Origin: a virus
Length of the DNA stretch: 24,094 nt
Direction: 5' to 3' (one strand)
IMG/VR virus record: IMGVR_UViG_3300036828_000320
Span: 1 to 24,094 of that record
Part shown: positions 12,976-21,851 of the stretch, piece by piece
How the letters are laid out: each line of letters opens with the position of its first letter
Numbering within the stretch: position 1 is the first letter of the stretch
Made by a program: the position numbers and the translations under genes
The notes under the pieces: generated by a model
Seen by the model: the letters and a program-made list of their open reading frames with translations, nothing else
Databases searched by the model: none
Told to the model about the DNA's origin: nothing

Positions 12976-13251
12976 ATGCAAGTCCCGCTCCCCGCCGGCC
13001 TGCCCTACGCCTACTCGCTGATCCCCGACGGGACCGTCGAGCTGACCGTCACCGGCGACGCGCCCGTCAGCTACGGCTACCTGACGACTCCCGTCGACGA
13101 ACCCGACGGCACCCTCGCGCCAGGCGAGGCGCCGGTCACGCTCGACACCCCCGGCTGGCTGCTCGCCGAGGCCGAGACCGTCGCCGAGCTCGTCTACTCC
13201 GACCCGCCGCCAGTCGAGCAGCCGCCCGACCCGCCGCCGCCGGAGCCGTGA
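12976..13251 (+). CDS. Small acidic proline-rich protein, unknown
   Basis: This 91-residue protein starts at ATG 12976, eight bases after a GAGAGGA ribosome binding site. It has strand-like segments (GTVELTVTGDAPVSYGYL, then PVTLDTPGWLLAEAE) and a C-terminal tail made almost only of Pro and Glu/Asp (PPPVEQPPDPPPPEP). No family is recognised. It sits between the second fibre gene and the lysis genes, so a virion decoration or fibre-related role is as likely as a lysis role. The last codons overlap the GTG of the next gene. Confidence 0.65.
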   Translation: MQVPLPAGLPYAYSLIPDGTVELTVTGDAPVSYGYLTTPVDEPDGTLAPGEAPVTLDTPGWLLAEAETVAELVYSDPPPVEQPPDPPPPEP

Positions 13252-13448
13252 ACAAGGGCCGCGTCTACCTGCTCGTGATCGCGGTCGCGATGCTCGTGGC
13301 CGCCGGCGTCGTGCTGGTCCTCAACCGGGACTTGCCGACCGAGCTGCTCGGCAGCATCGCGTTCCTCGGAGGCGCCGCCGTCCTTATCAACCTGATCCTC
13401 GACCTGACCGGCAACGGCGACGACAAACGGAAGGACGACGATGGCTGA
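13248..13448 (+). CDS. Two-helix membrane protein, holin candidate
   Basis: This 66-residue protein starts at GTG 13248 in a GTGA overlap. It has a basic N-terminus (MNKGR) and two hydrophobic helices, about residues 6-25 (VYLLVIAVAMLVAAGVVLVL) and 31-53 (LPTELLGSIAFLGGAAVLIN plus LILDL), and a highly charged end (DDKRKDDDG). Small two-helix membrane proteins with charged tails placed just ahead of the endolysin are the usual form of class II holins, which let the endolysin reach the cell wall. The holin role is inferred from topology and place only; a spanin-like or immunity role is not excluded. Confidence 0.62.
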   Translation: MNKGRVYLLVIAVAMLVAAGVVLVLNRDLPTELLGSIAFLGGAAVLINLILDLTGNGDDKRKDDDG

Positions 13449-13650
13449 CCCCGAATTCGACCCCGACCTCACCGAGCAGTTCAACATCGACGTGAAGCCC
13501 ACCCCCGAGCCCGACGAGGAGCCCGCCGACGCGCACCAGGGCCCGCTCGACCACGAGAACGACGCCCGCTACCTCGACCCCGTCGACCCGCGACGCCGCA
13601 AAGTCGAGCAGCTCCGCGGCCGCCCGTTCGCCGACGACCAGGAGGCGTGA
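13441..13650 (+). CDS. Small acidic protein in lysis module, unknown
   Basis: This 69-residue protein overlaps the holin candidate by eight bases and the endolysin start by one. It is strongly acidic in its first half (DPEFDPDLTEQFNIDV, then EPDEEPAD) and basic near the end (DPRRRKVEQLRGRP), with no membrane segment or signal peptide. It is likely disordered. The tight coupling suggests coexpression with holin and endolysin; similar small genes in phages sometimes act as regulators of lysis or are virion linkers, but nothing in the sequence decides this. Confidence 0.58.
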   Translation: MADPEFDPDLTEQFNIDVKPTPEPDEEPADAHQGPLDHENDARYLDPVDPRRRKVEQLRGRPFADDQEA

Positions 13651-14402
13651 TGGCGCTCAAACGAGTCTGGATCCCGAGCCCGAACTACTCCAGCCGCGGC
13701 GGCGCGAGCGTCCGCCTGATCGTCCTACACACAGCCGAAGGGGCCCGCACGATCGAGAGCCTCGGTTCGTTCTTCAGCAGCTCCAGCGCCGGCGTCAGCT
13801 CGCAGATCGGCGCCGATGACAAGGCCGGCGTCGTCGGCGAGTACGTCAGCCGCGCCAACAAGGCCTGGACCCAGGGCAACTTCAACCCGGTCGCGACGAG
13901 CGTGGAGCTGTGCGGCTTCGCGTCCTGGTCCCTCGACGAGTGGATGGGCAACCACGGCAACATGCTCGCCAACTGCGCCGCGTGGATCGCCGAGGAGGCC
14001 GCGCACTTCGGCGTCCCGATCACCCGGCTGACGCCGGCGGAGGCGCAAGGTTCCGGGCGAGGCGTTTGCCAGCACATAGACCTCGGAAGCGCAGGCGGCG
14101 GCCACGTCGATTGTGGCTCCGGGTTCCCGATGGATTACGTCCTCGACCTCGCTCGCGCCGGCGGCGCTCCGCCGACCCAACCCCCACCCGCAGTTCTAGC
14201 CCAGGAGGATCCCAACATGATCGCTGTCGGACAGATGAAAGACGGCCGCTTCGAGGTGTTCGTCGAGGCGTCGCCCGCGAAGGCCGGCCAGGCCGGCGAG
14301 GTGTTCCACGGCTGGAACGAGCGAGACGGCGGCTGGGCCGGCCAGCAGAAGGGCTCGACCGCCGCCCACTGGGAGTCGCTCGGCACCCCAGGCAAGGACT
14401 GA
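13650..14402 (+). CDS. Endolysin: N-acetylmuramoyl-L-alanine amidase with C-terminal binding repeat
   Basis: This 250-residue protein cleaves the amide bond between muramic acid and the peptide to lyse the host. ATG 13650 overlaps the previous stop; a GTG one codon earlier is the alternative. Residues about 20-165 are an Amidase_2/PGRP-type domain: IVLHTAEGA with H27, CQHIDLGSAGGGHVDCGSGFP region with H142, H152 and C155. H27, one of the later His and C155 are the probable zinc ligands. A Pro-rich linker (about 168-188) leads to a single repeat of about 60 residues (GQMKDGRFEVFVEA, then GWAGQQKGS and HWESLGTPG) that resembles PLL-type lectin blades and probably binds the wall. The linker codes for a strong internal ribosome binding site with in-frame ATG 14217. 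It is the last gene of the late block. Confidence 0.86.
   Translation: MALKRVWIPSPNYSSRGGASVRLIVLHTAEGARTIESLGSFFSSSSAGVSSQIGADDKAGVVGEYVSRANKAWTQGNFNPVATSVELCGFASWSLDEWMGNHGNMLANCAAWIAEEAAHFGVPITRLTPAEAQGSGRGVCQHIDLGSAGGGHVDCGSGFPMDYVLDLARAGGAPPTQPPPAVLAQEDPNMIAVGQMKDGRFEVFVEASPAKAGQAGEVFHGWNERDGGWAGQQKGSTAAHWESLGTPGKD
14217..14402 (+). CDS. Internal in-frame start: separate endolysin binding domain
   Basis: ATG 14217 codes for Met190 of the endolysin and is preceded by AGGAGG (14203-14208) with an eight-base spacer, which is a better ribosome binding site than that of the full-length gene. Translation from here would give a 61-residue protein that is exactly the C-terminal binding repeat without the catalytic domain. 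Several known endolysins (for example Lys170 of an enterococcal phage and CD27L-type clostridial enzymes) make such a second product, which assembles with the full-length enzyme. The same is inferred here from the placement in the interdomain linker. Confidence 0.6.
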   Translation: MIAVGQMKDGRFEVFVEASPAKAGQAGEVFHGWNERDGGWAGQQKGSTAAHWESLGTPGKD

Positions 14403-14462
14403 CGCTGCAGGCCCCCAGGCGCCGCGTCCCGGCCGCTGGCGCGCTCGGCCTAACGGTCAACG

Positions 14463-14477
14463 CGACCCGCAGGGTCG
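14463..14477 (+). terminator. Candidate hairpin terminator after endolysin
   Basis: CGACCC and GGGTCG form a perfect six-base-pair stem with a GCA loop, about 60 bases downstream of the endolysin stop and followed by GGCCC. There is no T-run, as is common in very GC-rich genomes. It lies where the late tail-lysis operon should end. Confidence 0.35.
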
Positions 14478-14531
14478 GGCCCTCGATCCCCGCTCGACGG
14501 CTGACGTGGCGCCAGGGCGCCTGAGCCGCGA

Positions 14532-14570
14532 TGTGATCGGTCACAACACCTTCACAATAAGCGGTAGGGT
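14532..14570 (+). promoter_or_regulatory. Possible promoter with overlapping operator dyad
   Basis: TGTGA-TCGG-TCACA (14532-14545) is a perfect five-base-pair dyad. A TAGGGT element at 14565-14570 fits the actinobacterial -10 pattern TAnnnT, and the dyad lies about 18-20 bases upstream, over the -35 position, where no good TTGACA match is seen. The stretch ACACCTTCACAATAAG is clearly less GC-rich than its surroundings. A promoter here would lead into the PAS/XRE regulator at 14689 and the early genes, and the dyad could be the operator of that regulator. Confidence 0.35.
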
Positions 14571-14614
14571 CCTCGACGCCGAGGCGGCGCGAGCGCTCCG
14601 CCGGGCATAACGGG

Positions 14615-14635
14615 CGAGCGGTCGCGGGCCGCTCG
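14615..14635 (+). other. Stem-loop in leader of regulator gene
   Basis: CGAGCGG (14615-14621) and CCGCTCG (14629-14635) form a perfect seven-base-pair stem with a seven-base loop. No T-run follows. It lies between the possible promoter and the regulator gene, so it may be an RNA leader hairpin or a weak terminator. Confidence 0.35.
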
Positions 14636-14644
14636 GGGCGCAAC

Positions 14645-14677
14645 CTCTCGCCACTGACCGGCCTCCTCGGGCGAGAG
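14645..14677 (+). promoter_or_regulatory. Hairpin enclosing the ribosome binding site of the regulator
   Basis: CTCTCGCC (14645-14652) pairs perfectly with GGCGAGAG (14670-14677) across a 17-base loop. The right arm overlaps the purine-rich ribosome binding site (GAGAGAGG, ending eight bases before ATG 14689). If formed in the RNA, the hairpin would hide the binding site and lower translation of the regulator. Confidence 0.4.
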
Positions 14678-14688
14678 AGGCTACGGCC

Positions 14689-15378
14689 ATGCAGCGACTC
14701 GTCGACGGATTCGATGATCCGGCCTACGTCGTCCGCAACGACCCCTGGCTGACAATCGAGTCGTGGAACCACGGCATCGAACAGAAGCTCCACCGGGCCG
14801 CCGAGGACGCGATCGGGCGGCCAGCCTTCGAGTGCCTGCGGCCGACGCTCGATCGCGTAACCCGAGCGCACCTGGAGGACGACCTCCGCCGGCGCCACTG
14901 GTGGATCGGAACGACGACGCTGCTCGACACCCGCGAGCGCCCCGTCGCGGCCTGGGGCATCTGCTGCCCGGTTCAGCGCGCCAGCCTGAGCGACCCGACG
15001 CTGCACTATCTGACAGTTCTGCCGCGCGGCATGATGACCGCGTCGTTTTTCCCGCTAATAGCGACCAGCAGCGCTCCCCAGGGTAGCGCCGCTCCCTTCA
15101 CCGACCTCGATAACGGGTGGCAGCTTCTCGACCTCGTGGACGGAGAGACCCCCAAGGAACGGCGCAAGCGGACGATCGGCGAGAACATCGCCCGGTACCG
15201 CGAGGCTAAGCACCTCTCCCGCTATGCGCTGGCGCGCGACCTCGGGATCGAGCGGAGCCAGCTGATCAAGTGGGAGACCGGAACGTGGGAGCCGAGCGCC
15301 GCGCACATCGCCGAGCTCGCTGACCTGCTCGGCGTCCCCGACTGGACGTTCTATATCCCGCAGGAGCGCGTCGCATGA
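14689..15378 (+). CDS. PAS-domain XRE-family transcriptional regulator
   Basis: This 229-residue protein starts at ATG 14689, eight bases after GAGAGAGG. Residues about 10-98 resemble a PAS sensor fold (VVRNDPWLTIESWNHGIEQ, then AIGRPAFECL and a final strand RPVAAWGICCPV). A middle segment (about 100-150) is not assigned. Residues 163-222 are a clear Cro/C1-type helix-turn-helix (IGENIARYREAKHLSRYALA, then RDLGIERSQLIKWETGTWEP and IAELADLLGV). It is the first gene after the only gap and heads the early-type block, the place of a phage repressor or early activator. The PAS part, with two adjacent cysteines C92-C93, suggests it senses a ligand or redox state rather than RecA-driven cleavage: no peptidase domain is present. 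Which genes it controls is inferred. Confidence 0.8.
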   Translation: MQRLVDGFDDPAYVVRNDPWLTIESWNHGIEQKLHRAAEDAIGRPAFECLRPTLDRVTRAHLEDDLRRRHWWIGTTTLLDTRERPVAAWGICCPVQRASLSDPTLHYLTVLPRGMMTASFFPLIATSSAPQGSAAPFTDLDNGWQLLDLVDGETPKERRKRTIGENIARYREAKHLSRYALARDLGIERSQLIKWETGTWEPSAAHIAELADLLGVPDWTFYIPQERVA

Positions 15379-19554: not shown

Positions 19555-19871
19555 CAGTCAACACCTACCAGCGCCAGGCGTCGCTCGACCGAGCGAACCA
19601 GACGAAGGCCGAGATGGTCCAGCTCCGCAACCGGATCCGCGCCGCCGGCCGCGACGACGGCGCCCGGCTCGCCGCCGAGGCCGTCCTGCAGGCGACCAGC
19701 TCCCTGCGGTTCGCGCCGCTGCTGACGTCGATCCCCGGCGTCGGCGAGACCGCTTCTAACCGCATGCTGCACGTCGCGCGGATCAGCGCGGCCGCCCGCG
19801 TCAACTCGCGGTTCGTTGACCGGCGCCGGCGGATGCTGCTCGCCGACCTGCTCCTCGGACGGGCCGCCTGA
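19551..19871 (+). CDS. H2TH/mIHF-like DNA-binding protein
   Basis: This 106-residue protein starts at ATG 19551 (ATGA overlap; the frame upstream is inside the previous gene). After a basic helical N-terminus (TYQRQASLDRANQTKAEMVQ) it has the segment SSLRFAPLLTSIPGVGETAS followed by NRMLHVARISAAARVNSRFV and an Arg-rich helix (DRRRRMLLADLLLG). The order leucine helix, S-x-P-G-V-G turn, helix, I-x-x-x-x-R-V and final helix is that of mycobacterial integration host factor and related helix-two-turn-helix proteins. It would bend phage DNA for recombination, replication or gene control. I am fairly sure of the fold type, less of the exact role. Confidence 0.58.
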   Translation: MTVNTYQRQASLDRANQTKAEMVQLRNRIRAAGRDDGARLAAEAVLQATSSLRFAPLLTSIPGVGETASNRMLHVARISAAARVNSRFVDRRRRMLLADLLLGRAA

Positions 19872-20278
19872 TGGCGGCGTTCGTCACGACCGTCGCCCTG
19901 GCGATCACACCGATGCTCGACACGCTCGACGAGCTCGCGGGCTGCCCAGCGCCGGCGCCGGCGCACCACCACCAGCGGCCGCGGCCGCGGCGCGACCCGC
20001 CGCCGCCGCCGATGCAACAGGCGCTCGCGAGCTACTACGCCGACCCGCCCGGCTCCGCGAACGCCTGCGGGTTCGTCGCCCAGCTCGGCGTCGCCTCCAG
20101 AACGCTGCCGTGCGGCACCCACGTCCGGTTCTGCGCCGCGAGCTGCGCGACCGCGACCGTCGACGACCGGGGGCCCTACATCTACTCCCGTCTCTGGGAC
20201 CTGTCGGTCCAGCTCGCGCAGGCGATCGGCTTCGACCTCGGCGCCGGCGTCGCCCCGGTCAAGTGGGCGATCACATGA
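19871..20278 (+). CDS. Exported RlpA-like double-psi beta-barrel protein
   Basis: This 135-residue protein has a hydrophobic N-terminus (AAFVTTVALAITPML) that may be a weak signal peptide, then a His/Pro/Arg-rich linker (residues 26-48). The last part (about 50-135) is an RlpA/3D-type barrel: QALASYYADPPGSANACGFV, GVASRTLPCGTHVRFC, VDDRGPYIYSRLWDLS and GFDLGAGVAPVKW. The DRGP motif with D99 and the later D110-L-S match the conserved residues of RlpA, a septal lytic transglycosylase that cuts bare glycan strands. Extra cysteines (C66, C81, C88, C92) could form disulfides outside the cell. Its place in the early region, far from the endolysin, is odd. It could alter the wall early or block superinfection. 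Confidence 0.72.
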   Translation: MAAFVTTVALAITPMLDTLDELAGCPAPAPAHHHQRPRPRRDPPPPPMQQALASYYADPPGSANACGFVAQLGVASRTLPCGTHVRFCAASCATATVDDRGPYIYSRLWDLSVQLAQAIGFDLGAGVAPVKWAIT

Positions 20279-20301: not shown

Positions 20302-20838
20302 ATGCGCTCAACCAAGGTGGGCGCCCTCGTGGCGCTCTGGCTCGCCGCGATCGTCGCCGCGAACCTCACACTCACCCACTTCGGGCCCGGCTGGATCCTC
20401 CCCAACGCCTTCTTCCTGATCGGCCTCGACTTCATCACCCGAGACCGCCTCGCCGACTTCTGGGGCACTACCCGCTGGCTGAAGATGGCGCTGATGATCG
20501 CCGCCGGCGGCGCGCTGTCCTACTGGCTGAACCGCAACGCCGCCCAGATCGCGTTCGCCTCCACCGTCTCGTTCTGCGCCGCCGAGCTGGTCGAGGCGAT
20601 CGCCTACCACCTCCTCCGGCGGCAGCCCTGGGCCGACCGCGCGCCGAAGGCGGCGCTGCTCGCCGCCGCCGTCGACTCGGTCGTGTTCCCCACGCTCGCG
20701 TTCCACCAGTTCGTGTTCACCGTCAGCTTCGGCCAGTTCTGCGCCAAGCTCGCCGGCGCCACGTTCTGGACGTGGGTCATCGCCCGAACCGTCCCCGCCC
20801 CCGCCGTCGCGCCAGTCGTGCCCGTGGAGGCGCTATGA
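20302..20838 (+). CDS. YhhQ/VUT-family queuosine precursor transporter
   Basis: This 178-residue protein is all membrane helices. The start at 20302 is chosen because AAGGAGGG lies just upstream; ATG 20275, overlapping the previous stop, would add nine polar residues. The VUT (COG1738) pattern is visible: ALVALWLAAIVAANLTLTHF, GPGWILPNAFFLIGLDFITR followed by DRL, FASTVSFCAAELVEAIAYHL, and AAAVDSVVFPTLAF with D125. YhhQ carries preQ0 and preQ1 into bacterial cells, and phages with 7-deazaguanine DNA are known to carry YhhQ genes. The next two genes, QueD-like and DpdA-like, support that this one brings in the base precursor. It overlaps QueD by four bases. Confidence 0.8.
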   Translation: MRSTKVGALVALWLAAIVAANLTLTHFGPGWILPNAFFLIGLDFITRDRLADFWGTTRWLKMALMIAAGGALSYWLNRNAAQIAFASTVSFCAAELVEAIAYHLLRRQPWADRAPKAALLAAAVDSVVFPTLAFHQFVFTVSFGQFCAKLAGATFWTWVIARTVPAPAVAPVVPVEAL

Positions 20839-21143
20839 CCACCGTCGCGCGGCTCTACCGCTTCCGGGCGACGCACTCGCTGCCCGACTTCGCGCCGCCC
20901 TGGTGCTTCCCGCACCAGCACGACTACACCGTCGAGGTCGTCGCCCAGGGCGGCGTTGACACCGACGTCCTCGACCGCCGCTGGGCCGACACCGAGCTGC
21001 ACGGCACCGACCTCAACGAGATCGCCAACCCGTCGACCGTCGAGCACCTCGCCGAGCGGTTCCTTGACGAGATGCCCGCCGCCGTATTCGCCGTCACCGT
21101 CTGGGAGGACCAGGCGCGCTGGGGAAGGGCCGAGCGACCCTAA
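20835..21143 (+). CDS. queD: QueD-like 6-carboxytetrahydropterin synthase
   Basis: This 102-residue protein is slightly shorter than usual QueD (about 120). It shows the 6-pyruvoyl-tetrahydropterin synthase pattern: RFRATHSLPDFAPPWCFPHQ followed by HDYTVEVV. H14, H27 and H29 are the probable zinc ligands and C24 the catalytic cysteine. LNEIANPSTVEHLAERFLDE fits the second half of the active site, and E91 in VTVWED fits the pterin-anchoring glutamate. QueD converts dihydroneopterin triphosphate to 6-carboxytetrahydropterin, the first dedicated step to preQ0. It overlaps the transporter gene and abuts the DpdA-like gene. QueE, QueC and FolE are not seen in the window, so later steps would need the host, another part of the phage, or import. 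Confidence 0.8.
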   Translation: MTTVARLYRFRATHSLPDFAPPWCFPHQHDYTVEVVAQGGVDTDVLDRRWADTELHGTDLNEIANPSTVEHLAERFLDEMPAAVFAVTVWEDQARWGRAERP

Positions 21144-21851
21144 GTGCTGCACTACCACGTCACCCCGATCACCCCCCGCGAGCGGCTGCTGAGCATGGCC
21201 GGCCACTGCTTCTGCGTCAGCTTCGCCGACCCGCGCGACCTGCAGACCTGCCACGAGATCGGCCAGTCCGTGATGCTCGACAACGGCGCCTACTCGATCT
21301 GGAAGGCCGGCCGCGGCCGCGTCGACGTCGCCGCGTTCGCCCGCTGGGTCGAGCCGTGGCTCGACTTCAAAACGAGCTGGTGCGTCATCCCCGACGTGAT
21401 CGACGGCAGCGAGGACGACAACGACCAGCTGCTCCGCGAGTGGTTCGGCTACCGGCTGCCGTGGGACCAGTGCGCGCCGGTCTGGCACCTCCACGAGCCG
21501 CTCGAGCGGCTGCGGCGCCTCTGCAACGGCTACCCGCGCGTCTGCCTCGGATCCTCCGGCGCCTATGCGACGCCCGGCGACGAGCGCTGGCGCTGGCGCG
21601 TCACCGAGGTCATGAACGAGCTGTGCGGCGCCGGCGCGCCGCCGTGCTGGCTGCACATGCTCCGCGGGCTGACCGTCGCCAGCTCCTACCCGTTCGCGTC
21701 AGCCGACGGGATCGGGTCGCTCGGCAAGAACTGGAACCGCAACGGGCGGCGGCTCGACAGCGCCCGCGAGGCGCAGCGCATCGACGCCCAGCAGGGCCTC
21801 GCGCGCTGGCGCCCGGTAGCGCTGCCAACCGAACTGGAAGGAATCGCATGA
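21144..21851 (+). CDS. dpdA: DpdA-like DNA guanine transglycosylase
   Basis: This 235-residue protein starts at GTG 21144 directly after the QueD stop. It looks like a short TIM-barrel of the tRNA-guanine transglycosylase superfamily: SVMLDNGAYSIWKAGRGRVD with D46, CVIPDVIDGSEDDNDQLLRE with D84, APVWHLHEPLERLRRLC, then CLGSSGAYATPG, HMLRGLTVASSYPFASADGI with D188 and a GKNWNRNGRR end. The order D-N-G-A, P-D-V, H-x-H/E, L-G-S and S-A-D-x matches phage DpdA proteins, which exchange guanine in DNA for preQ0 or a related base. D46 or D188 would be the nucleophile. The end resembles the phage type (DpdA2 and relatives) more than the longer bacterial DpdA. Next to QueD and YhhQ-like genes, DNA rather than tRNA is the likely substrate. 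Confidence 0.72.
   Translation: MLHYHVTPITPRERLLSMAGHCFCVSFADPRDLQTCHEIGQSVMLDNGAYSIWKAGRGRVDVAAFARWVEPWLDFKTSWCVIPDVIDGSEDDNDQLLREWFGYRLPWDQCAPVWHLHEPLERLRRLCNGYPRVCLGSSGAYATPGDERWRWRVTEVMNELCGAGAPPCWLHMLRGLTVASSYPFASADGIGSLGKNWNRNGRRLDSAREAQRIDAQQGLARWRPVALPTELEGIA

Follow-up and report, generated by a model that had tools for sequence, protein, structure and literature searches.

The endolysin gene of IMG/VR virus record IMGVR_UViG_3300036828_000320 (a stretch of 24,094 nt, analysed over its whole length and hereafter called the window) possesses a ribosome-binding (SD) sequence and an in-frame start codon at the junction between its amidase domain and its tail. This tail is one four-stranded blade of the PLL-lectin propeller family, and the junction signal recurs in related genes. 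We consider it probable that the gene encodes a two-product 'Type II' endolysin, in which free blades would close a propeller around the enzyme-borne blade. The wider proposal, that a natural β-propeller is never encoded whole and that separately translated blades close a ring with one enzyme-tethered blade, seven being the favoured number, is finely balanced and leans slightly towards doubt.

A predicted internal start site between amidase and tail

The original prediction placed AGGAGG, an eight-base spacer and an in-frame ATG in the linker between the amidase and the tail, and this arrangement was read directly in the sequence (Table 1). The internal SD and ATG are separated by ATCCCAAC and lie in a proline-rich linker, between Amidase_2 and a 61-residue C-terminal domain. 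Across the window, the pattern AGGAGG-N4-10-ATG occurred eight times against 0.6 expected from shuffles, with two of the matches (300 and 303) representing one start and one match lying on the minus strand. Besides the match at 14203, those on the plus strand were located ahead of plausible gene starts, as judged by eye against the ORF list, suggesting that this phage starts genes with such signals.

Table 1 Coordinates of the endolysin gene, its two start sites and the adjacent small gene in the window.
Feature	Position	Strand	Basis or detail
66-aa protein, hydrophobic N-terminal half, just upstream of endolysin	13248..13448	+	Sequence
SD of full-length start, AGGAGG, spacer 4	13640..13645	+	Sequence
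Endolysin gene, full-length product 250 aa	13650..14402	+	ATG 13650, stop 14400-14402
Amidase_2 domain, residues 19-126	13704..14027	+	Pfam PF01510, E 1.8e-6
Internal SD, AGGAGG	14203..14208	+	Sequence; conserved in relatives
Internal in-frame ATG, Met190 (codon 190)	14217..14219	+	Frame of ATG 13650
Nested frame, predicted free product 61 aa, one PLL-type propeller blade	14217..14402	+	Translation, profile, model

The internal site had also been described as stronger than that of the full-length start. This held for its spacing, which is better, but not for the SD itself, as both starts share the same hexamer and the same computed pairing energy (−10.3). Local RNA structure (MFE, 70 nt) was also more favourable at the internal site, at −12 kcal/mol versus −21.9 kcal/mol at the full-length start. 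By mean unpaired probability, the start codon was less open at the full-length start (0.19 versus 0.64 at the internal site), whereas the SD region was more open there (0.69 versus 0.40).

Taken alone, the window gene provides no evidence beyond chance. An equally good site arose in 75–79% of its synonymous shuffles (P about 0.75–0.79), and the amino acids of this gene nearly force its internal site. For the window gene by itself, the site may thus be a coincidence at the protein level, whereby acidic linkers (QEE, EED) kept for the sake of the protein happen to be encoded as AGGAGG ahead of Met, Leu or Val. Given that this single gene was indistinguishable from chance, relatives were gathered, and the case for a non-chance signal rests on them. 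A separate blade transcript from an internal promoter was considered and rejected, since no promoter-like or terminator-like site occurred in 13000–14700 (sigma-70 consensus only).

Conservation of the junction signal across related genes

Relatives were collected through two IMG/VR protein scans (best 80 of 89 and best 80 of 406) and one scan of genome contigs. Together with the window locus, these gave 162 loci with a match and, once identical genes were merged, 107 distinct complete genes, among them that of the window (L081) and one from Crossiella (L082). The proteins resemble each other over the amidase, and 16 selected ones aligned to the window protein with 41–65% identity across the aligned part. 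The end of the amidase was fixed by hand at residue 160 for L127, L135, L142 and L157. Tails were assigned by motif and by eye to classes bearing our own names (PGB by motif): two PLL-like blades (42 genes), PGB-type (19), other (17), WWD (13), GYW repeats (6), one blade (4) and none (6). No separate tail gene was recognised by eye downstream of the six tail-less genes.

With an energy cut-off of our choice (dG ≤ −8), an in-frame SD-start was detected within the 39-codon linker region of 61/107 genes and within the amidase region of 1/107, the latter region (codon 30 to amidase end) being about three times the length of the former. Four of the site-bearing genes had a strong SD-start downstream of the site. 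Relative to synonymous shuffles (300 per gene), the site was present in 32/42 two-blade genes (13.1 expected), 12/13 WWD genes (5.2 expected) and 12/17 genes of the 'other' class (7.3 expected). It was found in three of the four one-blade amidases (1.95 expected), with the match in L142 lying inside the blade, away from the junction. The PGB class had the site in 1/19 genes (1.6 expected) and the tail-less class in 0/6. GYW genes, in which starts occur at the tail with mostly weak SDs, had it in 1/6 (1.7 expected), and this result counts against the generality of the signal.

Kinship among the genes was handled by thinning alone. At 70% tail identity, 0/100 shuffles reached the observed mean for the two-blade (18 genes), WWD (10) and other (16) classes, compared to 85/100 for PGB (8 genes). 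At 50%, the two-blade (7 genes) and other (14) classes were still above shuffles; WWD, reduced to two genes, showed no excess (15/100 shuffles reached the observed value). Retention of the SD-start at the domain junction in related genes, the conservation check set for the original prediction, was therefore upheld as a class-wide excess over shuffles that preserve the protein. The same excess argues against a protein-level coincidence, as do the confinement of two-blade start codons to the first tail position and the occurrence of linkers of other residues (PKEIEPM, PPEGTV) that also spell the signal. As an account of the relatives, coincidence appears very improbable.

The codon at the tail start was equally constrained. 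In 42/42 two-blade genes, the first tail residue was both the best site and a start codon (ATG 22, TTG 17, GTG 3). Leu at this position was encoded by TTG in 17/17 genes, whereas TTG makes up 27% of Leu codons in the same 17 genes, which is the behaviour of a start codon, unlike that of a structural leucine. Outside the PGB and no-tail classes, 80 genes had enough upstream sequence for comparison; in 61 of them, pairing was better at the internal SD than at the full-length SD (means −9.6 and −6.7, respectively). An SD-like pause, in which ribosomes are held back at AGGAGG to let the amidase fold before the tail is made and the start codon is incidental, would suit an inter-domain position. However, such a pause has no need of the fixed start codon found in every two-blade gene, and PGB-tailed genes also have a two-domain junction yet mostly lack the site. 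We give this explanation hardly any credence.

The signal also accompanied tail domains and enzymes of unrelated kinds, which the original prediction had not noticed. Searching with the single blade retrieved ten loci with an M15/VanY-like domain fused to the blade. Pfam VanY was run on L164, L167 and L174 and matched all three (E 2.1e-11 to 3e-13), the remaining seven being assigned by likeness. One further gene, L163, is truncated and joins the blade to an enzyme without a Pfam match; a GH19-like reading of this enzyme, suggested by resemblance, was set aside, as Pfam gave nothing. Together with the four amidases, these made up a set of 15 one-blade genes. An SD-start (≤ −6.5, again a cut-off of our choice) lay exactly at the blade in 11/15 of them against 4.6 expected (P = 7e-6 assuming independent genes, an assumption that does not fully hold). 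Regarding the remainder, L171 and L173 have an ATG at the blade, but the SD ahead of it is weak (−5.5). An SD is absent at this place in L142, and L172 lacks both SD and start codon, its aligned Val being GTC. As the site was kept on one-blade genes across three enzyme types, the signal follows the blade and not the enzyme.

A signal that travels with tail modules across enzymes might also be a relic of fusion, the tails having once been separate genes whose SD and start codon are now useless leftovers; gene fusion has been mentioned as one way in which these sites may have arisen (PMC12203907). A relic would be expected to decay, however, and SD strength remained above shuffles in diverged genes (two-blade genes thinned to <50% identity: 7/7 with the site versus 2.5 expected). 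The invariant TTG at Leu likewise speaks against a relic, as does the failure to see a separate blade gene at the loci checked. No standalone blade gene was recognised among the blade loci, all 12 listed frames extending upstream of the blade, and tblastn with the one-blade tail and one two-blade tail returned no annotated phage records carrying the blade. A fusion relic is, in our view, quite unlikely.

The tail of the WWD genes (L041, L043-L045, L054, L057, L059, L133, L138, L147, L155, L156 and L160) is a Trp-rich domain with 31 invariant columns in 12 sequences, and a strong SD-start occurs at the first residues of the domain in 12/13 genes. The GYW tail (L056, L061, L062, L064, L073 and L151) consists of short GYW...DG repeats, begins with KGR[NK]MIA in 5/6 genes and has an ATG at the junction in 6/6, with a strong SD in 1/6. 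L082 (4986-5816, Crossiella genome) encodes Amidase_2 and a helical-looking tail, with GGAGG followed by ATG at the junction (−10.2). It is likely a prophage gene with the same layout as the window gene and another tail type.

The propeller blade and its proposed assembly

The description of the tail as a 61-residue PLL-like repeat was confirmed by a profile of six one-blade sequences, which matched PLL/PHL lectins with a best E of 1.6e-16, a value that combines seven weak stretches, and the structural model was compatible with it. This model comprised four strands (pLDDT 87.7). Its best VIA-align rows were PHL and PLL (Z 5.1 and 5.0, barely above unrelated rows) and Foldseek gave no match at E ≤ 0.001; we attribute these weak structural matches to the unit being so small. 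For the two-blade tails, the profile matched PLL/PHL lectins at 2.3e-17 and the model (pLDDT 94.0) matched PLL lectins by Foldseek (E 2.3e-4) and by alignment (Z 11.3 over 90 residues, rmsd 2.4). Two-blade relatives also aligned with chains of the Ralstonia lectin RSL (Z about 8).

In PLL lectins, which have seven blades, the sites for sugar lie between neighbouring blades (PMC6943638). The tail of the window endolysin holds one blade of 61 aa, not the seven of a complete PLL lectin chain. The blade was matched in 8 of 396 genomes from the phylum of the Crossiella genome. Among the listed ORF rows of cellular relatives, 9/16 contained seven blade-like stretches, no more and no fewer (a count that includes two overlapping cuts of one contig), suggesting that cells often hold seven blades per chain. 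The other rows contained 1-6 stretches, some of them cut at the locus end. The phage genes of this family, in contrast to these often seven-bladed cellular chains, carry one or two blades plus a predicted internal start.

The central claim of the original prediction, an internal start yielding a free binding domain, is supported at the level of sequence by the junction SD-start kept in relatives, and the internal site is very probably translated. Ribosomes would initiate at 13650 to produce amidase-linker-blade and, independently, at the AGGAGG-ATG of 14203/14217 to produce the blade alone. Because PLL ligand sites form between neighbouring blades, the free blades would most likely associate with the enzyme-borne blade, completing a closed propeller. 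The resulting multivalent ring, predicted to bind the cell wall, would bear one or few amidase domains. Assembly of such a ring is a reading that we favour marginally. A count of seven, equating to one full-length to six free chains, is preferred tentatively, this being the blade number of PLL lectins and of many cellular relatives; two-blade relatives would have six or eight blades per ring. The suggestion that a one-blade domain would benefit from overproduction is in keeping with the inter-blade sugar sites of PLL lectins (PMC6943638).

Alternatively, the internal start may be used and the free blade made, with no ring forming, so that the short product acts on its own (e.g. as a competitor for sites on the wall) or arises as an unfolded by-product. 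The two-product endolysin LysJavan488 is described as forming no complex (PMC9430671). Furthermore, an isolated artificial WD40 blade was reported to be an unfolded monomer and mixed constructs failed to co-assemble (PMC6805158), a cautionary result that speaks against the ring. Yet internal starts between enzyme and binding domain are reported to give complexes (PMC9430671), a lone PLL-family blade has no neighbour with which to form an inter-blade site, and the junction site is rare with PGB-type tails (1/19). A free blade without a ring therefore seems rather unlikely.

Two-product endolysins provide a precedent for the proposed ring, as does the multi-chain lectin RSL. Internal starts were predicted in 51.5% of surveyed endolysin genes (PMC9430671), showing that the mechanism is already known, and the name 'Type II' for such enzymes is taken from PMC12203907. 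Complexes formed by such enzymes have stoichiometries of 1:3 (Lys170, LysIME-EF1), 2:2 (CTP1L, CD27L, CS74L) and 1:5 (LysP7951) (PMC9430671). As in Type II endolysins, a single gene encodes one catalytic domain and has an in-frame start between enzyme and binding domain, and the predicted short product is the binding domain. Judged from its sequence, the catalytic domain (Amidase_2) is followed by a C-terminal domain of predicted binding type (PLL-type blade). The in-frame start and its SD lie between the two, and the site is kept in place in relatives, with L142 and L172 as exceptions and a weak GYW class.

The window gene differs from known Type II endolysins in that its binding-type domain is one PLL-type propeller blade, of which additional copies would serve to complete a fold. 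Here, the signal also accompanies several unrelated tails on one amidase family, and some relatives use TTG as the predicted start. LysA (Gp2) of mycobacteriophage Ms6 is an endolysin of an actinobacterial phage with a confirmed internal start, but its short product retains a catalytic domain (PMC9430671), whereas the binding domain alone is predicted here. The PLL/PHL lectins of Photorhabdus share the same four-stranded blade; PLL has seven blades in one chain (PMC6943638), as opposed to one blade per chain, on an enzyme, in the window gene. RSL is a six-bladed propeller made from three chains and, like the proposed ring, is closed by several chains. As described in PMC11883740, it is a homotrimer with no enzyme attached and apparently no internal start, and each chain carries two blades' worth instead of one. 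In the literature searched, judged by titles and the starts of abstracts, no propeller-tailed endolysin was found. The absence of a known case for an amidase with a single lectin blade, as originally stated, thus held within this literature, where internal-start endolysins are known and the one-blade propeller version appears to be new.

If the ring forms as proposed, the single-blade ancestor postulated for propellers would have a living counterpart, and the ring would be a hetero-oligomeric propeller of a type not achieved with engineered WD40 blades. Extra copies would then provide missing parts of a fold, beyond added valency, and the single-blade idea could be tested directly on one-blade endolysins from nature. 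The junction signal, in which an SD precedes a start codon at the first residue of the tail, may further flag oligomer-forming binding domains of uncultured phages, which would be relevant to the expression of such endolysins.

Phage context and neighbouring genes

The 66-aa protein encoded just upstream of the endolysin is a holin candidate by its look only, and had no Pfam or PHROG match. At 313-1830, the window encodes a tail sheath protein whose identity to the sheaths of Gordonia and Arthrobacter phages is 28-29%. On this sequence match the phage is contractile-tailed, and its host is probably an actinobacterium.

Three adjacent genes at 20302-21851 matched Vut_1 (a transporter; E 1.8e-8), PTPS (E 1e-4, marginally over the cut-off) and the queuine tRNA-ribosyltransferase PHROG (E 2.7e-45, covering 11-207 of 509), respectively. 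This gene set is reminiscent of 7-deazaguanine DNA modification in phages. A small DPBB_1 protein (lytic transglycolase in Pfam wording; E 3.3e-8) is encoded at 19871-20278, far from the lysis genes.
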